NCBI RefSeq assembly: GCF_004340205.1
Contig: NZ_SLWB01000001.1
Location: 62,001 to 126,000, forward strand
Source of the DNA: Acetobacteroides hydrogenigenes
Lineage (GTDB): Bacteria > Bacteroidota > Bacteroidia > Bacteroidales > ZOR0009
Direction: 5' to 3'
DNA length: 64,000 bases
Each line of letters starts with the position of its first letter. The first letter of the stretch is position 1. Below, in pieces: positions 38,874 to 55,621 of this stretch. The notes below the pieces were generated by a model. That model ran no database searches. It was not told the origin of the DNA and was given only the letters and a program-made list of their open reading frames with translations. The translations under genes were made by a program, and so were the position numbers.

Positions 38874-39620
38874 CTATTTGGTGGAGTCGGGGTTCTTCTT
38901 CTCCTCCTCCTTTTTCTTTTCGGCGATGGTGGCCCGCGTCTTTATCTGCTCTACCAGCGGTGCAATGGCTACGTTTAGCGCATCGATAGCCGATTCCACC
39001 TCGGGGTAAACGCCCGACACCGAGTTCAGGTAGCCAAAGATGGTCTGAATGGTAGCCTGAAGACGGCGCACCGCCTCTACGCTGGTTACGCTGCCCACCT
39101 CGCCGTCGTTCCTTTTCTTCTCGTTATCCTTGAAGCGCTGGTTGCACAGGCCGAGCATATCTAACAGGCTGGTAATGCCAACCGTTGCCGAATCGCTGGT
39201 TAGCTGAGCGGATCCCTTTATGTCGTCCAACAGCTGATCGACAAGGGTGGTCTCGGAGCTGTAGCTCTCGTCCTGCATCGACCAGCCCCGATGGCGAATG
39301 GCCTCCTCCAGGCGTCGGCCGGCAGTGCGGATATTCTCCTCGGGCCGATACTTGGTAGAGAGCACCACTCCCTTTATGGCCAGCTCGATGTTACCGCGCT
39401 CATCATCTATACTCTTTGCCAGCTCGGCGAGCTCCGATGGCGTCAGCGCTCCAACCGAACGGTTGTACACCACAACGGCAGCGTCCAAATCGTCTGCCAA
39501 TTTTTGTGGAATAAGCTTCACGGAAAGCAAGCCCTTAACCGCATTCTGAACGTTTCGGGCTAGAGTACCCAGCTCCGTTACTAGGAGCCGAGCCATGTTA
39601 AAAGATATTATCCTTTTCAT
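38874..39620 (-). CDS. DUF6261-like protein of unknown function
   Basis: 248 aa, no signal peptide, no catalytic motif. Mostly helical with a conserved-looking core (LDAAVVVYNRSVGALTPSE, then KYRPEENIRTAGRRLEEAIRHRGW) and a charged tail (KKKEEEKKNPDSTK). The pattern resembles DUF6261, a Bacteroidota family found near repeats and in lineage-specific regions, but I cannot confirm it here. The start could also be Met9 (MARLLVTE). Confidence 0.6.
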   Translation of the reverse strand: MKRIISFNMARLLVTELGTLARNVQNAVKGLLSVKLIPQKLADDLDAAVVVYNRSVGALTPSELAELAKSIDDERGNIELAIKGVVLSTKYRPEENIRTAGRRLEEAIRHRGWSMQDESYSSETTLVDQLLDDIKGSAQLTSDSATVGITSLLDMLGLCNQRFKDNEKKRNDGEVGSVTSVEAVRRLQATIQTIFGYLNSVSGVYPEVESAIDALNVAIAPLVEQIKTRATIAEKKKEEEKKNPDSTK

Positions 39621-39790
39621 TTTTTATAGTTTAAGCCATATTGTCAACACCCTAAAATTAAATAATCCAAATATTTTATCAAATTTTTAGCTTAAATATT
39701 GCGAATAATACATCGCTCGCATTAAATATCCATAAACAACACATCCAAATACGCCATCGCACAAGAAATGAAAGGAGGTTGAATACTCAG

Positions 39791-40262
39791 TAGCGTACCC
39801 CAGCGGCGAGACCCGGAGGGTACAAAACTCAGTAGCGTACCCAAACCGCGAGACCCGAAGGGTACAAAACTCAGTAGCGTACCCCAACCGCGAGACCCGA
39901 AGGGTACAAAACTCGGTAGCGTACCCCAACCGCGAGACCCGAAGGGTACAATACTCGGTAGCGCACCCAAACCGCGAGACCCGAAGGGTACAAAACTCAG
40001 TAGCGTACCCAAACCGCGAGACCCGGAGGGTACAAAACTCAGTAGCGTACCCAAACCGCGAGACCCGAAGGGTACAAAACTCAGTAGCGTACCCCAACCG
40101 CGAGACCCGAAGGGTACAAAACTCGGTAGCGTACCCAAACCGCGAGACCCGAAGGGTACAATACTCGGTAGCGTACCCAAACCGCGAGACCCGAAGGGTA
40201 CAATACTCGGTAGCGTACCCCAGCGGCGAGACCTGGAGGGTACAAAACTCGACAGGATACCC
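39791..40262. repeat. 42-bp tandem repeat array with inverted GGGTAC/GTACCC half sites
   Basis: Eleven well-kept units start (TAGCGTACCC) at 39791 and every 42 bp up to 40211, with a decayed twelfth at 40253. Units differ at only a few positions (CAG/CAA, GGCGAG/CGCGAG, GAAG/GGAG, CTCAG/CTCGG). Each unit holds GTACCC and GGGTAC facing each other, with centres about 19 and 23 bp apart, i.e. again near 21 bp. Minus-strand frames across it stay open because 42 is divisible by 3. The array lies upstream of the DUF6261-like gene and before a 500-bp gene-free stretch. Confidence 0.92.
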
Positions 40263-40724: not shown

Positions 40725-40758
40725 CGCCAAATCGTAAGCTGAAATTTACGATTTGGCG
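40725..40758. promoter_or_regulatory. 34-bp palindrome upstream of first giant surface protein (possible operator)
   Basis: CGCCAAATCGTAA, 8-bp spacer, TTACGATTTGGCG: perfect 13-bp arms, about 94 bp before the ATG. The same palindrome with the same spacing is at 48903-48936, before the paralogous gene. The surrounding promoter region is also conserved between the two (CTGTAGCATCGAAA.CCAACAATCAA just before the start). A binding site for a dimeric regulator is a reasonable reading. Confidence 0.65.
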
Positions 40759-40851: not shown

Positions 40852-43800
40852 ATGAAAAGATTTCTACTAATCCTAGCCCTATGGCTCTCCTCCTCTGTGG
40901 GGGCGCTGGGGCAAACCGCCGCACCGGCACGGGCAGCGGTACCCAAACGAAGGAGCATCAGGCTACCGCTGGCTGCCCTGCTGCTGGCTGCCCTGCTGGC
41001 GCTAGGCGGACAGGCAAGCGCACAAACAATTACATTCCAAGGAGGAACAGCAAACCCTCCCATCTTTAACGGCGGCGACACCCAGTATACCGAAAACGGC
41101 ATAACGTTGGGCATTAAGATGTCGAATGCAGATAATAATCCTTCCAACGGGTTCAATAAGGATACTAATGGATGGGGAATATACAGCACCAACACCGGAA
41201 CCCCAACAACGGTTACCATTACCTGCCCAGGCTACACGTTCAACCTTGACCGTTTGGCATTAGAAAAGCTTGAAGAAGGCGATATACGCTATACCGTCAC
41301 CACCTCCAAAGGAGTTTCTCAAGAGGTGGACTTCCGAGAAGGCCTTTGGATTAGCGATATCTCAAACCCCGACTTGTTCAAAGGAATAGACAGTTTTACC
41401 ATCACGTTAAAAACCTCTGCCCTCAATCTCCTTTTGCAGATAAATACGCTTGAGCTGAGCGGCTTAACCCTCATAGCTTCCCCATCGGCCCCCACGGCCG
41501 TTACCGCCACACCCGGCGATGGAATCGCTACGGTAAGCTTCACCCCTCCAACAAACGACGGCGGAGCACCCGTTACGGGCTACACGGTAACCTCCAGCCC
41601 TGGTAGCATTAAGGCAACGGGCACCCAGAGCCCCATCGTCGTAACCGGGCTTACCAACGGAATCGAGTACACCTTTACCGTTACGGCCAGCAACATAGCA
41701 AAAGTGAGTGCACCTTCAGCGGCGTCGGCTCCCGTAACGCCCGTCTACAAGCCCGACGTGCTAATCGTTTCGAACAATAATTATGACGAAACGCAAGCAA
41801 CCGCGCAGCTGCAAAAAGATTTCGCCGACCGCTACGACGTAACCGTGAGCACCACAGGGGTACCCTCTTATCCTTATAGCTACTCGCAGATTTACGACGT
41901 AAGGGTAAGAGAGGCGATTACAGACAATGATCTGAATCAATACTACTACTTTTTACGTCAGGCGCCGGGCAAATCGGTCTTTGTAGTAGGAGAACGCAAC
42001 GATAATACCAGTTTCACGGCCAGAAATCAGAGCATCAGCAAGCTTATCGAGAAGCTAGGTGGAGGCACCGTAGCCCCTCCTAGTAAAATATCGATAGAAC
42101 CCGTAGCGCTGAAAACCCCCTTCAACACGGGCGCAAGCAGCGTTTCAACCGTAACGCTTACCTCACCTGGGCTTGTAACCTCGTCGGGGAAGGGCTCCTT
42201 TATTGCCACCGAAGCCGATGGCACCTCGGGCGCTGGGATTTACTTTCCCCATAACACGCTAGCATACGCCCCCCAGGGGTGTCTGGTGGTGATGTACGAT
42301 GTCAACTTCCTCTACAATGATCTTTTGGTAGACTCCTATGGTAATGAAATGAATTACGATCCTCTTTCGAACCAGAAAGAACTCCGAGCGAATCTGGAGC
42401 AGGTAATGGCCGCCGGAGGAACGCTGCCAGGCCCCAGCACCTCCAGCGTTAGCCTGAGCGCGAATCCTAACCCCGTAGGCGTATCGGCACCAGTAACGAT
42501 TACCGCCACCGTAACCGGGGGAGTTAGCGGGAAGGTGCAGTTCATAGAAGATGCTAAGATTTTTGGCAGGTACACGCTAGAGAATGGCGTTGCCACCCTT
42601 ACCACCAATTCATTAGAATTAGGCACCCACACCATAACGGCGCAATACTCTGGCGATGCAGAGCACAATGCATCCACTTCGGAGGCGTTTAAGTTTGTTG
42701 TCTGCACCGCACCCGATGCCCCAACCATTGGAGCCGCCACCGCTGATGATGGGCAGGCTACCGTAAGCTTTACCCCACCCGCATCCGACGGAGGATCGCC
42801 AATTACGGGCTACACGGTAACCGCTACACCCGGCAACATTACGGCAACAGGCACAACGAGCCCCATCGTCGTAACCGGTCTTACCAACGGAACAGACTAC
42901 ACCTTTACCGTTACGGCCAGCAACGCGGCCCTAACAAGCGCACCATCGGCGGCAACGAATAGCGTTAAGCCCCAAAAGAGTCAAACCATCAGCTTTACCA
43001 ACCCCGGCGCGCAGCTCTACGGCACAACGCCAACCCTTACGGCTACGGCCACCTCGGGGCTACAGGTTACGTTTACCACCACCACGCCCAACGTGTGCAC
43101 CATCAGCAGCGGCGGTACGCTAAGCTTTACCTCCGCAGGAACCTGCACCGTAGTGGCCGATCAGGCAGGCAACGCCCCCTACAAGGCTGCGCCATCCGTA
43201 CCGCAAAGCTTTGCGGTAAACCCTGTGGCACCAGCCGCCCCAATCGGCGTTACCGCCATCGCTGGCGACGAGCAGGCGAGGGTGGAATTTTTCCAACCAG
43301 CTAACGATGGCGGAGCGCCCGTTACGAGCTACACGGTAACCGCCACCCCCGGCGGCATTACGGAAACGGGCACTATGAGCCCCATAGTCGTAACCGGGCT
43401 TACCAACGGAATCGAGTACACCTTTACCGTTACGGGCAGCAACATAGCCAAAGAGAGCGCACCATCAGAGGCATCGGCTCCTGTAACGCCCTTCTACAAG
43501 CCCGATGTGCTAGTTGTTTCGAACAACCAGTGGGACGAAAAGGGTGCAGCCCACCAGCTGCAAATGGATCTCTCCAACCGCTTCGACGTAACCGTAAGCA
43601 CATCTGGGGTTCCCGCTTCGCTGGATGGCTACGCGCAGATTTACGACGTCCGAGTAACCGAACCCATTACATCTAGCGATGCAACCCTATACGCCGACTT
43701 TTTGAGGAACAACCCTAAAAAATCCCTCTTTTTGGCAGGAGAATGCCTCTGGTTTAAGTACCGCAACCAGAGCATTAGCAGCTTTATTCAGCAGCTCGGC

Positions 43801-46422
43801 GGCGGCACCATTGCCCCTCCTGTAGCAGAATCAGATCCTAAAAAAGTAGCGCTTAAGGTTCCCTTTAATGCGGGGGCAAGCAGCATATCAACCGTACATC
43901 TGGACGGATACGGAATCGTCACCGAATCGGGTAACGGCTCCTTTATTACCACCGAGGCCGATGGAACCTCGGGTGCGGGGCTCTACTTCCCTCAAGGAAC
44001 GCTAGCCAACGCCCCTACGGGAAGCCTAGTGGTGATGTACGACATTACATTTTTAGCTTCTGCTGCCAGCTATAACTATGCCTTCCGAATGAACCTGGAG
44101 CAGGTAATGGCAGCCGGAGGAACGCTCGCTGGCCCTAGCGCCTCAACCATCAGCCTGAGCGGAACGCCCAACCCAACCGCTAAGCATTCGCCTGTAACCT
44201 TTACAGCTACCGTAACACCTGGGGCAACCGGAGAAGTGCAATTCTCGGAAGACGGAATTGTCTTAGAAAATGTCACGATAGACAACGGCGTTGCTACCTA
44301 TAGCTACCCATCCATAGGCTTAGGAGAGCGCTCCATAAAGGCCAAGTACATTGGCGATGCCAGCTACAACTCATCTACTTCGGAGGTGTTTAAGCTGAAC
44401 GTTTACGACGTCCCCGATGCCCCAACCATTGGAACCGCTACCGCAGGCGATGGACAGGCTACCGTAAACTTTACCCCATCGGCATACGACGGAGGATTGC
44501 CAATTACGGGCTACACGGTAACCGCTACCCCCGGCAACATTACGGCAACAGGCACAGCAAGTCCAATAACCGTAACCGGACTTGCTAACGGAACGGAATA
44601 CTCCTTTACCGTTACTACCAGTAACGCAGTAGGCACAGGCGCGGCTTCGGCGGTTTCGAACAGCATAAAGCCAATGCATACCTCCGTAATCGCATGGAGC
44701 AATCCTGCCGATATCACCTACGGCACTGCACTAGGCGATGCGCAGCTCAACGCTACTGCCGATGTACCTGGAACGTTTGCCTATACCCCTGCCGCAGGCT
44801 CCGTGCTCAACGCAGGCAATGCTCAAGCGATCACCGCAACCTTTACCCCCACTGATAAGGGGAACACCACGGAAAGCAAAACGCTTACCATTAGCGTGGC
44901 GAAGGCACCGCTTACCGTTACCGCCAGCAGCCACACCATCACCAAGGGCGAGGCAATACCTGTTCTCACCGTTAGCTACAGCGGATTCGTGAACAGTGAG
45001 GACCAGAGCGTGCTCGACATTAAGCCTACCGCTACCACCTCCGCAACCGCTACCAGTCCCGTGGGCGAGTACGCCATCATTGCTGCAGATGGTATCGATG
45101 GAAACTACAGCTTTACCTATGTTGATGGTAAGCTTACCATTCTCGACAAGCGCATACCTACGATTACCTGGGCCGAACCAAATGGCATAACCTACGGTAC
45201 GCCTTTAAGCGATGAGCAGCTCAACGCCACCGCATCGTACAGCGGAGCAGCCGTTGCTGGCTCCTTCACCTACACCCCTACCGCAGGCACAACCCTAGCA
45301 GCAGGCAAACACGAGCTGAAGGTGACCTTCACCCCCACGGATGGCGACCACTACATCAGCGTGGAAAAGACAGTAGCCATCACCGTAGGCAAGGTGCCGC
45401 TTACCGCTACCGCCACCAGCTACAGCATCCGCGAGGGAGAGGCCATACCAGTCCTAGGCGTTACCTACAAAGGGTTCGTGAACGGAGATACCGAGGCGGT
45501 GCTCGACACCAAGCCTACCGCAACCACCACCGCAACCGCTACCAGCCCTACTGGAGTTTACGATATTACGGTAGCAGGCGGTGCCGACGATAGCTACGAG
45601 TTCGCCTACGTTGCCGGCAAGCTTACCATATCGAACCCAATTGTGGTGAATGCGCTAAAGGCTCCACAGCCAGCCTGCGAGGGCGACAAGCTAAGCCTTG
45701 CCTACACCCTTACCAGCGGCAGGCCTACCGAGTACCAGATCGTATTCGACGCCAAGGCCCTAACGGCAGGCTTCAGCAACAGCGGCTACGCTGCGCTGCC
45801 TACCGATGACGGTACCGTTTCCTTCAGCATACCCGCAAGGGTGACCGACGGCACCTACCAAGCCACGCTGCAGCTTCGCGACGGTTACGGCAACATCAGC
45901 GAACCAGCAGCCTTCCAGGTAACCGTTAACGTATCGGCTGACGTCATCGTTCCCAAGTTTGGCAGCGTGGTGCTGATCGACAACCACAATGGCCGCTTTA
46001 CCGGCTACCAGTGGTACAAGAACGGTAGCGCCATAGGCGGGGCTACCAGCCAGTTCTATAAGGACCCCAACGGTCTTAGCGGAACCTACTACGCGCAGCT
46101 AAAAACGGCAACGGGACAAACCGTGAACACCTGCTCCAAGGCGCTAAGCATAAAGAAGAGCGCACAGGCTAGCGTGAGCGTTTACCCCAACCCTGCCCGT
46201 GCAGGACAGGAGCTCACCGTTAAGCTTTCTGGCTTCGCCGACGAGGAGCTGCAGGGCGCCGTGCTAACGGTGTACAGCACCCAGGGCGTACCCGTGCTCA
46301 CCTCGCGTAAGGTGGAGCAGGAAAACCGCATCACCCTGTCGGGAACCGACGGCGTGTACATGGGCCGCATCGCCACCGCCGATGGGCAGGTGCTCACCTT
46401 TAAGGTGGTTTTGGCCAACTAA
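40852..46422 (+). CDS. giant multidomain surface protein, T9SS type A sorting domain
   Basis: 1856 aa. Signal peptide MKRFLLILALWLSS... (cut after GALGQ), then a basic linker and a second hydrophobic segment ending GQASAQ (~37-58). Unrecognised beta domain to ~205. FN3 (~211-298). A domain opening KPDVLIVSNN with QIYDVRV and LGGGTVAPP (~301-525). Ig-like (~528-618), FN3 (~620-705), a YGTTP-type Ig domain (~710-790), FN3, then a second copy of the KPDVL domain (~883-1090), Ig-like, FN3. MBG-type YGT repeats run from ~1280 to 1600. A C-terminal module follows, with the T9SS sorting domain (VSVYPNPARAGQ ... ending VVLAN) at ~1777-1856. Likely secreted by T9SS and anchored at the cell surface; adhesin or matrix role is inference. 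The 3' end is shared with 49029-52781. Confidence 0.88.
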   Translation: MKRFLLILALWLSSSVGALGQTAAPARAAVPKRRSIRLPLAALLLAALLALGGQASAQTITFQGGTANPPIFNGGDTQYTENGITLGIKMSNADNNPSNGFNKDTNGWGIYSTNTGTPTTVTITCPGYTFNLDRLALEKLEEGDIRYTVTTSKGVSQEVDFREGLWISDISNPDLFKGIDSFTITLKTSALNLLLQINTLELSGLTLIASPSAPTAVTATPGDGIATVSFTPPTNDGGAPVTGYTVTSSPGSIKATGTQSPIVVTGLTNGIEYTFTVTASNIAKVSAPSAASAPVTPVYKPDVLIVSNNNYDETQATAQLQKDFADRYDVTVSTTGVPSYPYSYSQIYDVRVREAITDNDLNQYYYFLRQAPGKSVFVVGERNDNTSFTARNQSISKLIEKLGGGTVAPPSKISIEPVALKTPFNTGASSVSTVTLTSPGLVTSSGKGSFIATEADGTSGAGIYFPHNTLAYAPQGCLVVMYDVNFLYNDLLVDSYGNEMNYDPLSNQKELRANLEQVMAAGGTLPGPSTSSVSLSANPNPVGVSAPVTITATVTGGVSGKVQFIEDAKIFGRYTLENGVATLTTNSLELGTHTITAQYSGDAEHNASTSEAFKFVVCTAPDAPTIGAATADDGQATVSFTPPASDGGSPITGYTVTATPGNITATGTTSPIVVTGLTNGTDYTFTVTASNAALTSAPSAATNSVKPQKSQTISFTNPGAQLYGTTPTLTATATSGLQVTFTTTTPNVCTISSGGTLSFTSAGTCTVVADQAGNAPYKAAPSVPQSFAVNPVAPAAPIGVTAIAGDEQARVEFFQPANDGGAPVTSYTVTATPGGITETGTMSPIVVTGLTNGIEYTFTVTGSNIAKESAPSEASAPVTPFYKPDVLVVSNNQWDEKGAAHQLQMDLSNRFDVTVSTSGVPASLDGYAQIYDVRVTEPITSSDATLYADFLRNNPKKSLFLAGECLWFKYRNQSISSFIQQLGGGTIAPPVAESDPKKVALKVPFNAGASSISTVHLDGYGIVTESGNGSFITTEADGTSGAGLYFPQGTLANAPTGSLVVMYDITFLASAASYNYAFRMNLEQVMAAGGTLAGPSASTISLSGTPNPTAKHSPVTFTATVTPGATGEVQFSEDGIVLENVTIDNGVATYSYPSIGLGERSIKAKYIGDASYNSSTSEVFKLNVYDVPDAPTIGTATAGDGQATVNFTPSAYDGGLPITGYTVTATPGNITATGTASPITVTGLANGTEYSFTVTTSNAVGTGAASAVSNSIKPMHTSVIAWSNPADITYGTALGDAQLNATADVPGTFAYTPAAGSVLNAGNAQAITATFTPTDKGNTTESKTLTISVAKAPLTVTASSHTITKGEAIPVLTVSYSGFVNSEDQSVLDIKPTATTSATATSPVGEYAIIAADGIDGNYSFTYVDGKLTILDKRIPTITWAEPNGITYGTPLSDEQLNATASYSGAAVAGSFTYTPTAGTTLAAGKHELKVTFTPTDGDHYISVEKTVAITVGKVPLTATATSYSIREGEAIPVLGVTYKGFVNGDTEAVLDTKPTATTTATATSPTGVYDITVAGGADDSYEFAYVAGKLTISNPIVVNALKAPQPACEGDKLSLAYTLTSGRPTEYQIVFDAKALTAGFSNSGYAALPTDDGTVSFSIPARVTDGTYQATLQLRDGYGNISEPAAFQVTVNVSADVIVPKFGSVVLIDNHNGRFTGYQWYKNGSAIGGATSQFYKDPNGLSGTYYAQLKTATGQTVNTCSKALSIKKSAQASVSVYPNPARAGQELTVKLSGFADEELQGAVLTVYSTQGVPVLTSRKVEQENRITLSGTDGVYMGRIATADGQVLTFKVVLAN

Positions 46423-47416
46423 ACGTAAAGGGATGGGCGGCGCTGCCGCTCATCCTTCAAACTAAAAAGAGTAAAATGATGATAAAAGAGATCCTTATAG
46501 CCGCACTGGCGCTCGGCGCCACCGCTGCGGCGCAGGCCCAGAAGGGAGACACGTTCCTCTCGCTTAGCGCGGGCGGCGGCCTCCACCAGCTGGGCTACAG
46601 CATCGACAACGGCAGTCGTAAAGGGAATGCCGGATTTACCCTTGGCGCGGGGTACACCTACTTCCTCAGCGCCAGCTGGGGCATCAGCACGGGCGTGGGC
46701 GTGCAATCGTTCAAGGCGACCGCCACGCTGAACGCCCTAACCAAGACCCCCAGCGTGGATGCCGAGGGCGACGCCGACGAGCTCCGCACCCGCTACAGCG
46801 GCTGGAAGGAGGAGCAGCGCGCTACCCTAATCGATATTCCCTTTGCGGCCACCTACCGACATGCGCTAAACCCTAAGGTTGGGCTGATGGCCTCGGCGGG
46901 CATCAAGCTCTCCATCCCAACCAAGAGCCGCTACAAGGCCACAGGCGGCACCATTACCACCACGGGCTACTACAGCCAGTGGGACGTGGAGCTGGGCGAC
47001 CTGCCCGAGCAGGGACTAAGGACGTACGGAGATAGGCCCTCGGACGACATCACCCTCCGCGCCACCGTAGCGCTGCTGGCTGATGCCGGAGCTACCTACC
47101 AGCTTACCGATGCCATCAGCCTGTACGGCGGCGCCTACGCCAGCTACGGCCTAGGCAGCATGCTCAAGGCCGACAACAAGCCCATTTACCTAAAGGACGG
47201 CACCTACAACGGCCTATTTGCCTCCAATGCCGTGGGCAAGGTTAGGCCACTTGCCGTGGGTGTTAAGTTGGGTGTAATGTGGAACTTTATGAAATGAGAT
47301 TTTAGACATTAGACGCTAGATGGTGATGCTTGATATTTTGAGGAAGGACGATTAGGCGTACTTCTAAAATCTAATATCTAGCATCTAATGTCTAGTTCTA
47401 GCACATCCATACAATG
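45366..47416 (+). repeat. 2.05-kb direct duplication, copy 1
   Basis: From AAAGACAGTAGCCATC on, this copy is nearly identical to 51725-53784, at a constant offset of 6359 bp through both coding regions. It covers the last ~352 codons of the giant protein, the intergenic 53 bp, the whole barrel-protein gene and about 115 bp downstream. Differences are a handful of substitutions and a few small indels in the ATCTAA-type repeats after the barrel gene. Confidence 0.95.
46476..47297 (+). CDS. outer membrane beta-barrel protein, copy 1
   Basis: 273 aa, signal peptide cut near AAAQAQ. Alternating amphipathic strands typical of an 8-10-strand barrel of the PorT/OmpA-like group (FLSLSAGGGLHQLGYS, GFTLGAGYTYFLSASWGISTG, FAATYRHALNPKVGLMASAGIKL, ending VKLGVMWNFMK). 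It starts 53 bp after the giant protein, so the two are probably co-transcribed, and the barrel could anchor or assist its partner. It differs from copy 2 at five residues (Asp/Tyr near 93, Leu/Phe near 210, Asn-Ala/Asp-Gly near 251, Met/Val near the end). Confidence 0.88.
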   Translation: MMIKEILIAALALGATAAAQAQKGDTFLSLSAGGGLHQLGYSIDNGSRKGNAGFTLGAGYTYFLSASWGISTGVGVQSFKATATLNALTKTPSVDAEGDADELRTRYSGWKEEQRATLIDIPFAATYRHALNPKVGLMASAGIKLSIPTKSRYKATGGTITTTGYYSQWDVELGDLPEQGLRTYGDRPSDDITLRATVALLADAGATYQLTDAISLYGGAYASYGLGSMLKADNKPIYLKDGTYNGLFASNAVGKVRPLAVGVKLGVMWNFMK

Positions 47417-47420
47417 AGAG

Positions 47421-47453
47421 AGGCGCAGCCCGATGGGGTTTGCGCCTTTTTAT
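47421..47453 (+). terminator. terminator after barrel gene copy 1
   Basis: AGGCGCAGCCC GATGG GGTTTGCGCCT followed by TTTTATTGG. It lies just beyond the duplicated segment. The rest of the gap to 47656 holds one copy of the TTATCCTCCCGC...GGCAGGAG element (47596-47615) and no gene. Confidence 0.85.
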
Positions 47454-47656
47454 TGGTAGAACCGCACTAGGTGCTACCTCAGACAAACTTTTATCGACAC
47501 TACCCAAGTTTAGCGGGTATGCTAAACAGGTCCAAGGCTAAGAGCAAATCTTGAACAGGAAAAGTTTCAATCAAGCACTACCGTTTGATTGAAGCTGGTT
47601 ATCCTCCCGCTTAGGCAGGAGATAGGACAAATTGATTTAATCGAGATCCCTATACC

Positions 47657-48784
47657 CTACACCTCCACCTTCTCGGCCACGCGCAAGAAGCTGCGGTAGC
47701 TGCTGAAGCCGGCCATCTCCGAGAGCTCGAGCTTGCTCCGTCCCTCGTTGGCGGGGTCGGCCAGCAGCTGCTGGTACTCCTGCAGGCGGCGCTGGTTGAT
47801 GTAGGCGCTAAAGTTGACCCCATACTCGGAGTTGACGAACGCGGAGATGTAGGTACGGTTGACCCCCAGCGCCTCCACCAGGTCGGTAATCTTGAGGTTG
47901 GGGTTCAGATAGGGGCGCTCAGCCTGCATGTACTCCTCGAAGCTCTCGCGGGTGAGCTGGCTCTTCTTCGGCAGTGCTGTACTATCATACTCGGAGGTAT
48001 GCCCCCCCAGCAGCGGAGGCTCGTCCTCCACAATCGTTACATAGTGCCCCGCAAGCACGTAGTAGCAGAGGTAGCAGTACTGAACCAGCAGCACCACGAC
48101 GTGGATGCCCATTACGAAGGAGTTCAGTACGGTGTTGCGCGAGTAGATGAGCGTTAGGGAGGGGATAACGAACAGGAGAACCGAAAGAATGAGAAACCCC
48201 AGCACCCATCGTAGCAGGTTGGGATGCCCGCTGGCGTGAGCGGCAACAAAGCGTCGGTAGCGCGCTAGCCGACCAAATGCCAGCATGGTGTACACTACCG
48301 TAAAGACCAGCCGCACGACCATCTTGCTGTTGGAGTAGAAGAAGAAGAGGCGCTCGCTCCCGTTATACTCGCCGCGGCCCATCACCACCCGCAGCTGCTC
48401 GGCCTCGGGCGTTACCAGCTGCAGCACCAGCAGGCCCAGCGTGATAAGGCCCGGCAGCAGGTAGTGCCACCACGAAAAGCGCTCGGACGCGTCGATGCGC
48501 GTAACCTTAAAGATGAAGCCGTAGAAGTACACCTGGATGAGCATAAACGCCAGGTAGGAAAGCCAGTTAATGCGGACGAAAATCTCTGGAACATGAAAGT
48601 AGAGCAGCAGGGTTACCCAGCTAACCAGCGTGCTGCCAAAGTAGAGGAACACCCTCGAGCGAAGCCGCCACTCCCCCGTTCCACCGCGCATGGTGTCGAA
48701 GGTAAGGATCAGCAGCGCAGCAAACGAGGTAATAGCCGGAGCCAGAATTATAAAAAGAGCGTAAAGGTTTTCGAGTGATATCAT
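47657..48784 (-). CDS. seven-TM membrane protein with C-terminal AraC-type HTH (regulator)
   Basis: 375 aa. Seven hydrophobic helices fill residues ~4-245 (for example LFIILAPAITSFAALLILTF and YLAFMLIQVYFYGFIFKV). A cytoplasmic AraC-family HTH follows: ITDLVEALGVNRTYISAFVN, FSAYINQRRLQEYQQLL and LELSEMAGFSSYRSFLRV. It ends soon after the second helix pair, as in many Bacteroidota members of this class. The gene is divergent from the giant protein at 49029 (244-bp gap with the 34-bp palindrome) and lies between the two paralogous units, so it is the best candidate to control both. Confidence 0.88.
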   Translation of the reverse strand: MISLENLYALFIILAPAITSFAALLILTFDTMRGGTGEWRLRSRVFLYFGSTLVSWVTLLLYFHVPEIFVRINWLSYLAFMLIQVYFYGFIFKVTRIDASERFSWWHYLLPGLITLGLLVLQLVTPEAEQLRVVMGRGEYNGSERLFFFYSNSKMVVRLVFTVVYTMLAFGRLARYRRFVAAHASGHPNLLRWVLGFLILSVLLFVIPSLTLIYSRNTVLNSFVMGIHVVVLLVQYCYLCYYVLAGHYVTIVEDEPPLLGGHTSEYDSTALPKKSQLTRESFEEYMQAERPYLNPNLKITDLVEALGVNRTYISAFVNSEYGVNFSAYINQRRLQEYQQLLADPANEGRSKLELSEMAGFSSYRSFLRVAEKVEV

Positions 48785-48902
48785 AGGTTAGCCGCCCAAT
48801 AAAAAGAGGAGCAAATGTACCAAATCTGCCAGCATAAGCCTTCACGCGCAAACCCTAAAAATCCTTAGGGGATACGAATTTCACCGCTTTCTTTCAGCCA
48901 GT

Positions 48903-48936
48903 CGCCAAATCGTAAGCTGATTTTTACGATTTGGCG
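48903..48936. promoter_or_regulatory. 34-bp palindrome upstream of second giant surface protein (possible operator)
   Basis: CGCCAAATCGTAA, 8-bp spacer, TTACGATTTGGCG; arms identical to 40725-40758 and spacer differing slightly. It sits in the divergent promoter region shared with the AraC-type regulator gene, 92 bp before the start of the giant gene. Confidence 0.65.
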
Positions 48937-49028
48937 CCCCCATTTACGCCGCATTTGCCTCCTTTGCGCGAATTAAAGGGAGCGGTAGCTCCCATCTGTA
49001 GCATCGAAAACCAACAATCAAATAATAA

Positions 49029-52000
49029 ATGAAAAGATTTCTACTAATCCTAGCCCTATGGCTCTCCATTGTAGCCGGGGCAGTGGCGCAAACCGCCAAG
49101 CCGAACATCCTAATTATTACGGGATCTGGGACGATTGAAAAAGAGATCGCCGACAAGATGGAGGCCGAACTCTCCGACCGCTACAACATAACCAGACATT
49201 CTACAGGCAGTATTGCGCTGGATGGCTTCTCCCAAATCTACGATCTTCGAATAAACATTAACGATCATGATTACCCTCAAGCATGGCAGCGCGAGGCGTT
49301 TTTAAAATTTCTGAATGCCGCCAAGGGGAACTCCCTGTTTTTGCTGGGGGGGCCGATGTCGAACTACAACCTCCGCGGTGTGAGAATTAATAGTTTTATT
49401 ACGGAAGCAGGAGGAGGCCCCGTTAAGAACATCCAGAATGACAACCCCGGGGACCCCGAAATTCTGAAGGCTCCCTTTGCCTCCGGGCCAAACAGCTTAA
49501 CCACCATTTCGCTTGGCGAAAAAGGAGGAACTCCCCCCTTATCAGGTACGGGCACCTACTTATCCACCCACTCCGACGGCACACCAGGATGCGGGCTTTA
49601 CTTTGCCCAGAATACGCTTACCAACGCCCCCAACGGCTGCTTGGTAGTACTATACTCGTTCGCCCTTATGCGCGATAACGATGCCTTGCGGGCCAACATA
49701 GAGCACGTTATGGCTGCCGGCGGAACGCTGCCAGGCCCTACCGCCTCCAGCATCAGCCTGAGCGTTACCCCCAACCCTACTGCCAGGAGTAGTAAAGTAA
49801 CCTACACCGCCACCGTAACACCAGGAGCCACTGGATCCGTGATGTTTAAGAGGGGAAATGCCGAGAACCTAGTTTCGCTAAATAGTAATGGAACGGCCAC
49901 CTATGTAGGTAATACTCTACCATACGCTGGAACCATATCCATGACGGCTCAATACTACGGCGATGCAAACTATAACCCATCCGGCAAAGAGACAGTTAAT
50001 GTGGTTGTTTGCGGCACGCCAATGTACCCTACTGGTGTAACCGCCACCGCTGGCGATGGACAAGCCACCGTAAGCTTTACCCCACCAACAAGCGACGGCG
50101 GGGCGCCAATTATAAGCTACACGGTAACCGCCAGCCCAGGGAACATTACGGCAACGGGCACATCGAGCCCCATAACCATAACCGGGCTCACCAACGGAAC
50201 AGCCTACACCTTTAAGGTTAAGGCCAGCAACGGACCAAATACTAGCATGGATTCGCCCTCGTCGAATAGCGTAACGCCAATGCATACCTCCGTAGTTACA
50301 TACCCAACTGAAGCCCCCTACGGCACCGCTATAGGAGAGGGAGCGCTAAGCGCCACAGCCGACGTGCCGGGAACGTTTGACTACACCCCTGCCAAAGGCA
50401 CCATGCTGAACGTAGGAAATAACCAAGCGCTCAGCGTAACCTTTACTCCTACCGATAAAGGGAACACCACGGCCAGCAAAGCGGTAACCGTTAACGTAAC
50501 CAAGGCGCAGCTTACCGTTACTGCCAGCAGCCACATCATTACCAAGGGCGAGCCCATTCCGACACCGAACATTACCTACAGCGGATTCGTGAACGGCGAG
50601 GACGAGAGCGTGCTCGACATCAAGCCTACCGCTACCACCATCGCAACCAACACCAGCAACGCTGGCACCTACGATATCGTAGCAGCAAATGGTAGCGACG
50701 ACAACTACGAACTCGCCTATGTGAAGGGTACGCTTACCATCAGCAAGATTACCCCAACTATCACCTGGGCAGAGCCTGCCACCATCACCTACGGTACGCC
50801 AGTAAGCGACATGCAGTTCAACGCCACCGTAATGCACAACGGAGCGGCAGTGCCAGGTACGCTCACCTACACCACCGAGGGCAAAACCCTAAAGGCGGGC
50901 GATATTCTTGCCGCAGGCGATCACATCCTAAAGGTAACCTTTACCCCTACCGATGCGGTTAACTACAGCAGCGTGGAAAAAACCGTAAGCCTTACCGTAG
51001 AAAAGGCAACACCGACCATTACATGGGAAGCCCCATCGGCCATTACCTACGGAACGCCTGTTAGCAACGTGCAGCTTAGCGCCAACGTGTCGTTCAACGG
51101 AGCGACAGTGGCAGGTGCAACTTCCTACACCGATAACGGAAACGCCGTGAAGGAGGGCGATATACTTATCGCAGGCGAGCACATCCTAAAGGCAACCTTT
51201 ACCCCTACCGATGCAGCCAACTACATTAGTATTGAGAAAACCGTAAGCCTTACCGTAGAAAAGGCTACACCGACCATTACATGGGAAACGCCTTCGTCCA
51301 TTACCTACGGAACGCCTGTTAGCAACGTGCAGCTTAGCGCCAACGTGTCGTTCAACGGAGCGGCAGTGGTAGGAGCAACTTCCTACACCGACAACGGAGA
51401 CGCCGTGAAGGAGGGCGATATACTTATCGCAGGCGAGCACATCCTAAAGGCAACCTTTACCCCTACCGATGCAGCCAACTACATTAGCATTGAGAAAACC
51501 GTAAGCCTTACCGTAGAAAAGGCTACACCGACCATTACCTGGGAAGCCCCATCGACCATTACCTACGGAACAAAACTGGACGACGAACAACTCCGCGCCA
51601 CCGCCGATGCAGAGGGAACCTTTACCTACACCCCTGCAACAGGAACCGTGCTGAACGCAGGGCTAGATCAAACGCTCAGCGCGACCTTTACCCCTACCGA
51701 TAAGGTCAACTACAACGAAGTTACAAAGACAGTAGCCATCACCGTAGGCAAGGTGCCGCTTACCGCTACCGCCACCAGCTACAGCATCCGCGAGGGAGAG
51801 GCCATTCCAGCCCTAGGCGTTACCTACAAAGGGTTCGTGAACGGAGATACCGAGGCGGTGCTCGACACCAAGCCTACCGCAACCACCACCGCAACCGCTA
51901 CCAGTCCTACTGGAGTTTACGATATTACGGTAGCAGGCGGTGCCGACGATAGCTACGAGTTCGCCTACGTTGCCGGCAAGCTTACCATATCGAACCCAAT

Positions 52001-52781
52001 TGTGGTGAATGCGCTAAAGGCTCCACAGCCAGCCTGCGAGGGCGACAAGCTAAGCCTTGCCTACACCCTTACCAGCGGCAGGCCTACCGAGTACCAGATC
52101 GTATTCGACGCCAAGGCCCTAACGGCAGGCTTCAGCAACAGCGGCTACGCTGCGCTGCCTACCGATGACGGTACCGTTTCCTTCAGCATACCCGCAAGGG
52201 TGACCGACGGCACCTACCAGGCCACGCTGCAGCTTCGCGACGGTTACGGCAACATCAGCGAACCAGCAGCCTTCCAGGTAACCGTTAACGTATCGGCTGA
52301 CGTCATCGTTCCCAAGTTTGGCAGCGTGGTGCTGATCGACAACCACAATGGCCGCTTTACCGGCTACCAGTGGTACAAGAACGGTAGCGCCATAGGCGGG
52401 GCTACCAGCCAGTTCTATAAGGACCCCAACGGTCTTAGCGGAACCTACTACGCGCAGCTAAAAACGGCAACGGGACAAACCGTGAACACCTGCTCCAAGG
52501 CGCTAAGCATAAAGAAGAGCGCACAGGCTAGCGTGAGCGTTTACCCCAACCCTGCCCGTGCAGGACAGGAGCTCACCGTTAAGCTTTCTGGCTTCGCCGA
52601 CGAGGAGCTGCAGGGCGCCGTGCTAACGGTGTACAGCACCCAGGGCGTACCCGTGCTCACCTCGCGTAAGGTGGAGCAGGAAAACCGCATCACCCTGTCG
52701 GGAACCGACGGCGTGTACATGGGCCGCATCGCCACCGCCGATGGGCAGGTGCTCACCTTTAAGGTGGTTTTGGCCAACTAA
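49029..52781 (+). CDS. large multidomain surface protein, T9SS type A sorting domain (paralogue)
   Basis: 1250 aa. Signal peptide MKRFLLILALWLSI... cut after GAVAQ, here without the second hydrophobic segment. A KPNILIITGSG domain (~23-235) with SQIYDLRI and ITEAGGG, homologous to the two KPDVL domains of the first protein. Ig-like (~240-330), FN3 (~334-415), then MBG/YGT repeats (~420-985), two of which are almost identical 86-residue copies. The last ~350 residues are the same as in the first protein: CEGDKLSLAYTLTSG module and T9SS sorting domain (VSVYPNP, ending VVLAN). Expected to be T9SS-secreted and surface-attached. Followed by barrel gene copy 2. Confidence 0.88.
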   Translation: MKRFLLILALWLSIVAGAVAQTAKPNILIITGSGTIEKEIADKMEAELSDRYNITRHSTGSIALDGFSQIYDLRININDHDYPQAWQREAFLKFLNAAKGNSLFLLGGPMSNYNLRGVRINSFITEAGGGPVKNIQNDNPGDPEILKAPFASGPNSLTTISLGEKGGTPPLSGTGTYLSTHSDGTPGCGLYFAQNTLTNAPNGCLVVLYSFALMRDNDALRANIEHVMAAGGTLPGPTASSISLSVTPNPTARSSKVTYTATVTPGATGSVMFKRGNAENLVSLNSNGTATYVGNTLPYAGTISMTAQYYGDANYNPSGKETVNVVVCGTPMYPTGVTATAGDGQATVSFTPPTSDGGAPIISYTVTASPGNITATGTSSPITITGLTNGTAYTFKVKASNGPNTSMDSPSSNSVTPMHTSVVTYPTEAPYGTAIGEGALSATADVPGTFDYTPAKGTMLNVGNNQALSVTFTPTDKGNTTASKAVTVNVTKAQLTVTASSHIITKGEPIPTPNITYSGFVNGEDESVLDIKPTATTIATNTSNAGTYDIVAANGSDDNYELAYVKGTLTISKITPTITWAEPATITYGTPVSDMQFNATVMHNGAAVPGTLTYTTEGKTLKAGDILAAGDHILKVTFTPTDAVNYSSVEKTVSLTVEKATPTITWEAPSAITYGTPVSNVQLSANVSFNGATVAGATSYTDNGNAVKEGDILIAGEHILKATFTPTDAANYISIEKTVSLTVEKATPTITWETPSSITYGTPVSNVQLSANVSFNGAAVVGATSYTDNGDAVKEGDILIAGEHILKATFTPTDAANYISIEKTVSLTVEKATPTITWEAPSTITYGTKLDDEQLRATADAEGTFTYTPATGTVLNAGLDQTLSATFTPTDKVNYNEVTKTVAITVGKVPLTATATSYSIREGEAIPALGVTYKGFVNGDTEAVLDTKPTATTTATATSPTGVYDITVAGGADDSYEFAYVAGKLTISNPIVVNALKAPQPACEGDKLSLAYTLTSGRPTEYQIVFDAKALTAGFSNSGYAALPTDDGTVSFSIPARVTDGTYQATLQLRDGYGNISEPAAFQVTVNVSADVIVPKFGSVVLIDNHNGRFTGYQWYKNGSAIGGATSQFYKDPNGLSGTYYAQLKTATGQTVNTCSKALSIKKSAQASVSVYPNPARAGQELTVKLSGFADEELQGAVLTVYSTQGVPVLTSRKVEQENRITLSGTDGVYMGRIATADGQVLTFKVVLAN
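51003..51518 (+). repeat. two adjacent 258-bp (86-codon) MBG repeats
   Basis: Segments 51003-51260 and 51261-51518 differ by only a few bases (for example GAAGCCCCATCGGCC against GAAACGCCTTCGTCC). More diverged units precede and follow. Such near-identity points to recent unequal crossing-over or slippage, a source of length variation in the protein. Confidence 0.92.
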
Positions 52782-53784
52782 ACGTAAAGGGATGGGCGGC
52801 GCTGCCGCTCATCCTTCAAACTAAAAAGAGTAAAATGATGATAAAAGAGATCCTTATAGCCGCACTGGCGCTCGGCGCCACCGCTGCGGCGCAGGCCCAG
52901 AAGGGAGACACGTTCCTCTCGCTTAGCGCGGGCGGCGGCCTCCACCAGCTGGGCTACAGCATCGACAACGGCAGTCGTAAAGGGAATGCCGGATTTACCC
53001 TTGGCGCGGGGTACACCTACTTCCTCAGCGCCAGCTGGGGCATCAGCACGGGCGTGGGCGTGCAATCGTTCAAGGCGACCGCCACGCTGAACGCCCTAAC
53101 CAAGACCCCCAGCGTGGATGCCGAGGGCGACGCCTACGAGCTCCGCACCCGCTACAGCGGCTGGAAGGAGGAGCAGCGCGCTACCCTAATCGATATTCCC
53201 TTTGCGGCCACCTACCGACATGCGCTAAACCCTAAGGTTGGGCTGATGGCCTCGGCGGGCATCAAGCTCTCCATCCCAACCAAGAGCCGCTACAAGGCCA
53301 CAGGCGGCACCATTACCACCACGGGCTACTACAGCCAGTGGGACGTGGAGCTGGGCGACCTACCCGAGCAGGGGCTAAGAACGTACGGAGATAGGCCCTC
53401 GGACGACATCACCCTCCGCGCCACCGTAGCGCTGCTGGCCGATGCCGGAGCTACCTACCAGTTTACCGATGCCATCAGCCTGTACGGCGGCGCCTACGCC
53501 AGCTACGGCCTAGGCAGCATGCTCAAGGCCGACAACAAGCCCATTTACCTAAAGGACGGCACCTACAACGGCCTATTTGCCTCCGATGGCGTGGGCAAGG
53601 TTAGGCCACTTGCCGTGGGTGTTAAGCTGGGCGTGGTGTGGAACTTTATGAAATGAGATTTTAGACGTTAGACATTAGACGCTAGATGGTGATGCTTGAT
53701 ATTTTGAGGAAGGACGATTAGGCGTACTTCTAAAATCTAATATCTAGCATCTAATGTCTAATATCTAGCACATCCATACAATGA
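51725..53784 (+). repeat. 2.05-kb direct duplication, copy 2
   Basis: Counterpart of 45366-47416. In-frame in the second giant protein, continuing through its barrel gene and about 125 bp beyond. The left boundary falls inside an MBG repeat, where the two proteins switch from clearly different to nearly identical sequence within a few codons. Confidence 0.95.
52835..53656 (+). CDS. outer membrane beta-barrel protein, copy 2
   Basis: 273 aa, almost identical to the protein at 46476-47297, with the same 53-bp spacing to the giant gene upstream. Distinguishing residues: Tyr in DAYELR, Phe in YQFTDA, Asp-Gly in SDGVGK and Val in GVVWNF. Signal peptide and strand pattern are the same. Conservation of the pair suggests the barrel works with the surface protein encoded just before it. 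Confidence 0.88.
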   Translation: MMIKEILIAALALGATAAAQAQKGDTFLSLSAGGGLHQLGYSIDNGSRKGNAGFTLGAGYTYFLSASWGISTGVGVQSFKATATLNALTKTPSVDAEGDAYELRTRYSGWKEEQRATLIDIPFAATYRHALNPKVGLMASAGIKLSIPTKSRYKATGGTITTTGYYSQWDVELGDLPEQGLRTYGDRPSDDITLRATVALLADAGATYQFTDAISLYGGAYASYGLGSMLKADNKPIYLKDGTYNGLFASDGVGKVRPLAVGVKLGVVWNFMK

Positions 53785-54811: not shown

Positions 54812-55621
54812 CTATTTCAGTCGGTATACCCGAACGTAATCTATGTAAAACTTTTGAGGGAAGATGCTATCGTCTATGGCACCACCCCACGAGCCACCAA
54901 CTGCGGTATTTATCAGCAGGTACATGGGCTTTTCGAAAATCTTGGGTAGGGCCGATGCTGGAGGAGTGAAGGTAAAGTATACATTATCGTCCACGAATAG
55001 CGAAATCGTATTGCCCCTGCGCTCTAAACCATACACATGAAAATTATCGTGCAGATCGTTAAAATGAAGCTTATCGCCCTTGCTGCTGTGGTGCGACTTG
55101 CTGGTAGATAAGGAATCGTACCAGTGAAGCGTTCCCCATACGGTGTTTGGAGTGTTGCCCACAAACTCCATGATATCCATCTCGCCACAGCGAGGCCATC
55201 CCACCTCGGGGCGGTTGCTACCCATCATCCAAATAGCTGGCCATATGCCCTTACCCTGGGGTAGCTTAGCCGACACCTCTATCCTAAAGTCGCCATCGAA
55301 CGAAGCCTTACCCAAGGTATTGATGCTTGCCGATGTGTAGTTAAACCCCTCGAAAGGTTCCTTTAACGATTCGATTACCAGATAACCGTTTTCGACATGG
55401 GCATTCTCGATTCGAGCATTGGTGTAGTACTGCTTCTCGTTGTTACGAATCAGCCCCACCTCGTAGCCCCACTTCTTAGGATCAGGCAGACCCTTATAGC
55501 TAAACTCGTCAGCCCAAATTAGCTTAGCCTTTGAGCGGCTAGCAACATTATGAGAGGAAGAGCACGATGCAAAAAGCGCAACCGTCCCTACCAATAGTCC
55601 ACATACAAGTCTATTATTCAT
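54812..55621 (-). CDS. GH16 family glycoside hydrolase lipoprotein (laminarinase/beta-glucanase-like)
   Basis: 269 aa. Lipoprotein signal with Cys20 (LFASC). The GH16 jelly roll starts at LIWADEFSYKG. The catalytic motif GEMDIMEFVG has the ExDxxE arrangement of nucleophile, assisting Asp and acid/base, with the beta-bulge Met. GIWPAIWMMG precedes it and YLLINTAVGGSWGG closes the fold. GH16 enzymes with this motif cut beta-1,3 or mixed beta-glucans; agarase or carrageenase activity is possible but less likely. Single gene, 94 bp from the kinase gene upstream. Confidence 0.92.
   Translation of the reverse strand: MNNRLVCGLLVGTVALFASCSSSHNVASRSKAKLIWADEFSYKGLPDPKKWGYEVGLIRNNEKQYYTNARIENAHVENGYLVIESLKEPFEGFNYTSASINTLGKASFDGDFRIEVSAKLPQGKGIWPAIWMMGSNRPEVGWPRCGEMDIMEFVGNTPNTVWGTLHWYDSLSTSKSHHSSKGDKLHFNDLHDNFHVYGLERRGNTISLFVDDNVYFTFTPPASALPKIFEKPMYLLINTAVGGSWGGAIDDSIFPQKFYIDYVRVYRLK

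Follow-up and report, generated by a model that had tools for sequence, protein, structure and literature searches.

The window analysed here, a 64,000-nt stretch of the Acetobacteroides hydrogenigenes genome, contains two giant surface protein genes arranged in tandem. Each of them is followed by a small gene coding for an outer-membrane beta-barrel, and a gene for an AraC-type regulator is located between both units on the opposite strand. The individual features of the locus are:

40725–40758, no strand assigned: 34-bp perfect palindrome (13-bp arms) 5' of giant gene 1, a putative operator (genome and window scans)
40852–46422, plus strand: giant gene 1, 1856 aa, T9SS type A-CTD surface protein with Fn3, Big_3_5 and MBG_2 modules (ORF and translation, Pfam, NCBIfam)
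45366–47297, plus strand: copy 1 of the 3' unit (last 352 codons, spacer and barrel gene), 16 differences in 1932 bp to copy 2
46476–47297, plus strand: barrel gene 1, 273 aa, PF13568 outer-membrane beta-barrel (Pfam; AlphaFold model of the copy-2 protein)
47298–47407, plus strand: downstream tail of copy 1, with an inverted repeat related to short dispersed sequences
47657–48784, minus strand: AraC-type regulator gene between both units (HTH_18), orthologue of AraC2 of a sister species
48903–48936, no strand assigned: second copy of the 34-bp palindrome, 5' of giant gene 2 (genome and window scans)
49029–52781, plus strand: giant gene 2, 1250 aa, T9SS type A-CTD surface protein (ORF and translation, Pfam, NCBIfam)
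51725–53656, plus strand: copy 2 of the 3' unit, 16 differences in 1932 bp to copy 1
52835–53656, plus strand: barrel gene 2, 273 aa, 98% identical to barrel 1 (Pfam; AlphaFold model)
53657–53774, plus strand: downstream tail of copy 2, with a 7-bp insertion relative to copy 1

Both giant genes encode Fn3, Big_3_5 and MBG_2 modules, and both proteins end in a C-terminal domain (CTD) matching TIGR04183 with 31.4 and 31.5 bits, respectively (NCBIfam cut-off 23). NCBIfam assigned these CTDs to type A only, with no match to the type B model (TIGR04131). SprA and two PorV-family proteins of the T9SS translocon are encoded in the same genome. The barrel encoded by copy 2 was modelled with AlphaFold at a pLDDT of 87, and a fold search with this model retrieved generic small barrels, e.g., OmpA, OmpW and OmpX. 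Two further repeated elements were observed in the giant proteins. A module of about 210 aa without a Pfam match, opening with KPDVLIVSNN/KPNILIITGS, is found at residues 300–520 and 883–1110 of the gene 1 product (P0001) and at residues 24–235 of the gene 2 product (P0002). Within gene 2, a 258-bp tandem repeat (50892–51571, 2.6 copies, 92%) is a recent expansion of an MBG module.

The palindrome CGCCAAATCGTAA-N8-TTACGATTTGGCG exists in just two exact copies genome-wide, situated about 95–125 bp 5' of each giant gene, while the window scan gave 0.1 arm matches expected by chance. It was also found 5' of gene 2 in the sister species and is likely to serve as a dedicated operator. Upstream of giant gene 1, no AraC gene is present; a tandem array of a 42-bp sequence (39785–40250, 11 copies, 94% matches) and another gene occupy the place where the sister species carries its extra AraC gene. 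A suspected paralogy between 54812–55621 and 38874–39620, outside the two units, was dismissed as BLAST returned no match.

At their 3' ends, the two units are almost the same. Positions 45366–47297 and 51725–53656 differ at only 16 of 1932 positions (99.2% identity, offset 6359), which bears out the near-identity described in an earlier note on this DNA. The shared unit comprises the final 352 codons of the giant genes, the 53-bp spacer, the entire 273-codon barrel gene and approximately 110 bp of downstream sequence. The offset of 6359 bp, taken by the earlier note to be constant throughout, holds up to position 47297; beyond it, a 7-bp indel 3' of the barrel stop codon changes it to 6366. 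The downstream match, put at about 115 bp, likewise exists for about 110 bp and includes this indel, and similarity fades past ~47407/53774. Ten of the differences between the copies are silent and six change an amino acid. They are clustered (largest-gap test, P = 0.0005): the final 295 bp of the barrel gene contain 11 of the 16, and a 1456-bp core (45547–47002) only two. This clustering, together with a longest identical run of 914 bp, excludes a chance match. In the 300 bp immediately 5' of 45366, identity between the copies drops to 35%. Outside the unit, the two genes are nevertheless not different throughout, as an upstream block of about 190 bp together with the start of the signal peptide is 84% common to both giant genes, and the gene bodies have Fn3/Big_3_5/MBG modules in common at roughly 43–60% amino acid identity. 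A whole-genome search for additional copies of the shared end, as proposed in the earlier note, yielded only the two close copies already present in the window, each within an intact gene. The next relative in the genome is a 33%-identical barrel gene on a different contig, which is likewise located 3' of a CTD gene.

Downstream of both barrel genes (47303–47394 and 53669–53760), inverted 19-bp arms (TAGACATTAGACGCTAGAT ... ATCTAGCATCTAATGTCTA) were observed. Single arms resemble about 20 short sites genome-wide, and the element is possibly a small dispersed repeat.

In a sister species of the same genus (G002), whose genome is complete in a single contig, the locus is syntenic and comprises two units as well as two AraC genes; its own two 3' ends are 92% alike. 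At the DNA level, the AraC gene of the window is 82.6% identical to AraC2 of the sister species vs. 75.7% to AraC1. The dS of the AraC2 orthologues is 0.39, and that of AraC1 vs. AraC2 is 0.48–0.54. The 3' ends group differently: 209 informative sites support grouping by species, 14 by position and none crosswise. With the genome G001 as outgroup, the by-species tree of the 3' ends has a lead of 453 log-likelihood units, and both orthologous trees are rejected in the AU test. Most of the sites that group by position lie at the margins of the unit: 11 of 14 fall within the first 100 columns and another two within the last bin. Within the window genome, dS between the copies is 0.012 for the CTD and 0.035 for the barrel, compared to 0.16 and 0.14 within the sister species and 0.31–0.44 for the 3' ends between species.

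These data, a limited basis for the conversion test, cover the two species with the pair that were available. The two-unit locus of the sister species and the orthology of AraC2 place the duplication before the species split, and the within-genome paralogues of the 3' end are closer to each other than the orthologues are, relative to the flanks, which is the pattern of concerted evolution. As the AraC gene follows species history while the 3' ends group by species, the comparison indicates that the tandem pair is old and predates the species split, and that its 3' ends were homogenised separately in the two lineages, more recently in the window genome. Of the two origins offered by the earlier note, recent duplication or gene conversion, the former is probably incorrect for a pair that was present already in the common ancestor, whereas the latter is strongly supported by the site counts (209:14:0), the dS values, the AU test and the AraC gene.

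The N-terminal parts have followed another course. Over residues 1–1339, the gene 1 product aligns colinearly, at 58% identity, with gene 2 of the sister species. For the signal-peptide region of gene 2, the closest counterpart is gene 1 of that species. The MBG module just 5' of the shared end is again syntenic between the species (74% and 76%). This crossed colinearity of the fronts, followed by a syntenic MBG module, leads to the conclusion that front blocks swapped places in one lineage. By comparison of the two genomes, the N-terminal bodies occupy opposite positions, and the fronts are mosaics.

A constant end with variable fronts, and fronts found at opposite positions in two species, might also be expected if the locus were a switch or archive that produces antigenic or phase variation by recombining N-terminal cassettes onto the constant end, and the 84% block common to the 5' ends could support such an exchange. 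We consider this unlikely, however. The 3' units are direct repeats, and consequently a single crossover between them deletes or amplifies 6.4 kb and is unable to swap the fronts. Furthermore, the whole-genome search found no silent copies of the shared end, both giant genes are intact, and only a single positional change separates the species at a dS of about 0.4. Variable N-terminal parts on a constant end, as described in the earlier note, therefore fit the anatomy of the locus and the opposite positions across species, but their exchange by a cassette-like design for surface variation exceeds the evidence, given the direct orientation of the repeats and the lack of further shared ends in the genome.

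Two other explanations concern the origin of the near-identity itself. A recent tandem duplication in this species and a separate one in the sister species, without gene conversion, would likewise leave the 3' ends more similar within a species than between species. It is rejected as very unlikely because the intervening AraC gene is no recent copy but orthologous to AraC2, and because orthologous signal persists at the unit edges. In addition, for the MBG module 5' of the unit, similarity between species (74%, 76%) exceeds that between the copies, and the gene bodies are far more diverged than the ends. An assembly artefact, in which one 3' end was written twice, must be weighed for a draft genome of 32 contigs with an identical core of 914 bp, longer than short reads, and a similar repeat did break the assembly of another genome (G229). 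Yet 16 differences are resolved across the unit, the contig runs for 691 kb through it, and the complete genome of the sister species displays the same layout with ends that are 92% alike. As this independent genome has an identical layout, an artefactual origin of the two-copy arrangement is regarded as highly improbable. An old pair whose 3' ends were homogenised by recombination is, in our assessment, very probably the correct evolutionary reading.

The arrangement of a CTD gene followed by a barrel gene extends beyond this genus. Among 35 loci with relatives of the barrel, 27 exhibit a type A CTD gene directly upstream, at a gap of −4 to 85 nt (53 bp in the window), and all 27 of these genes match TIGR04183. 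Another ORF lies upstream in two of the 35 loci, and a simple scan identified no clear upstream ORF in the other six. A conserved Ig-like stalk is located 5' of the CTD, and stalk and CTD together were predicted at a pLDDT of 90. The stalk does not represent a new fold, since Ig-like domains with solved structures are matched by its profile. Of the CTD proteins inspected in the window genome, three bear the stalk and are accompanied by a barrel gene, and five others have neither. A stalk model, for which only the window genome, G001 and eight MAG loci served as training data, was used to search 295 genomes of the order. Thirty-five of 42 strong matches were found to have a barrel gene 248–1116 bp downstream (29 of 36 outside the genus), and seven of 42 had none, a point against a dedicated barrel. 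Distances between CTDs are correlated with those between barrels (r = 0.92, permutation maximum 0.46), which partly reflects shared ancestry. Taken together, the comparison points to Ig-like stalk, type A CTD and barrel as a conserved genetic unit recurring across the order.

None of 12 barrels matched the PorP/SprF profile at E values up to 1. The window barrels showed no match to the PorV_fam profile; one distant barrel scored weakly (23.4 bits vs. a cut-off of 90), and seven of the eight family barrels closest to the window had no PorV_fam score at any level. Membership in either PorP/SprF or PorV is thereby ruled out by the profile scans, with the fold search pointing to generic small barrels. 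The PorV genes of the window genome are located elsewhere, away from the barrel genes. Some family barrels, for example at L047 (G000:C16:4500-5861) and L048 (G002:C1:200 kb), carry a C-terminal extension that ends in an OmpA-like motif (RRVEIIIK, RRVELKIH), and this extension could add peptidoglycan binding to the barrel.

A second homogenised pair, in another family, is apparent from the sequence of G229. Here, two giant genes diverge upstream, and their last residues, the spacer and the barrel gene show 96–100% identity in each 100-bp step along the first 600 bp of the contigs. In two copies, the assembly is broken at the same position of the barrel gene (contigs C3, C19, C21 and C22; L092–L095), and paralogous units may consequently be concealed by repeats of this kind in other draft genomes. 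Concerted evolution was also considered for G020, G030 and G057, where the paralogue pairs are just 28–65% identical and nothing recent has occurred. G270 has multi-copy barrels, but the four loci compared there displayed no DNA similarity.

The closest known counterpart is the pairing of type B CTDs with PorP/SprF, i.e., SprB-SprF of Flavobacterium johnsoniae and PG1035-PorP of Porphyromonas gingivalis, in which the gene of a large T9SS substrate is immediately followed by the gene of a small-to-medium outer-membrane barrel, the C-terminal region is extended and each substrate has one dedicated barrel (PMC9143113; PMC12618676). In contrast, the window CTD is of type A (TIGR04183), its barrel is PF13568-like without a PorP/SprF match, and the physical partnership is putative. 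Type A CTDs are assigned to PorV in the literature (PMC12618676), and PorV-family proteins are present in the window genome, both of which argue against a dedicated barrel partner. A precedent is, however, provided by the type A CTD of PorZ, which is retained on a barrel of its own, PorQ (PMC10202324; PMC10994853), although PorV and PorQ are larger, FadL-type barrels, unlike those of the window. RgpA, Kgp and HagA of P. gingivalis are likewise type A-CTD surface proteins with identical stretches between genes and modular adhesin rearrangement (PMC5266723). They have their adhesin domains in common, whereas in the window the adhesive fronts differ and the common part consists of the tail and a second gene. 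As in other cases of concerted evolution of bacterial paralogues, same-genome paralogues are closer than orthologues (PMC6053082; PMC8022953), but conversion in the window covers a complete gene together with a spacer and part of another gene, and ends at a variable front. Our literature search, with most subscription papers outside its scope, found neither a pair of type A CTD and PF13568 barrel nor gene conversion in the T9SS.

In the proposed model, the locus is an old tandem pair of two-gene units, in each of which a giant protein with a terminal Ig-like stalk and T9SS type A CTD is paired with a small barrel encoded just downstream. Homologous recombination, presumably gene conversion by the general recombination machinery, would repeatedly overwrite one 3' end with the other and thereby keep the block of stalk, CTD, spacer and barrel near-identical within a genome. 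Meanwhile, the N-terminal adhesive parts diverge, grow through internal repeats and have swapped positions. The giant proteins would be exported via the T9SS present in the genome. On the basis of genetic linkage, and by analogy, the barrel might be the cognate outer-membrane partner, either anchor or shuttle, of the stalk and CTD, a role for and against which we give equal weight. Homogenisation would then keep each barrel compatible with each adhesin. It may be a mere consequence of homology, or it may have been retained because the tail needs a matching barrel; the pattern is sufficiently explained either by plain homology-driven conversion or by homogenisation of a CTD and a barrel that function together. 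The account as a whole, with an old tandem pair homogenised at its 3' ends and stalk, CTD and barrel acting as a unit, is considered probable. More tentatively, and with doubt prevailing, the pair might belong to an unnamed, widespread class of T9SS surface anchoring or shuttling, whose substrates, with an Ig-like stalk and type A CTD, would rely on small PF13568-type barrels of their own in place of PorV or following it, with gene conversion keeping tail and barrel interchangeable between the paralogous adhesins of a cell.

Type A substrates have been described with the common shuttle PorV, and dedicated barrels are known for type B. The conserved unit of stalk, type A CTD and barrel across the order suggests that a further dedicated pairing exists, for which it offers simple gene pairs for testing. 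At the locus itself, the adhesive front and the export tail of one protein have evolved apart from each other, and homogenisation has acted jointly on the tail and its partner gene, across a gene boundary.
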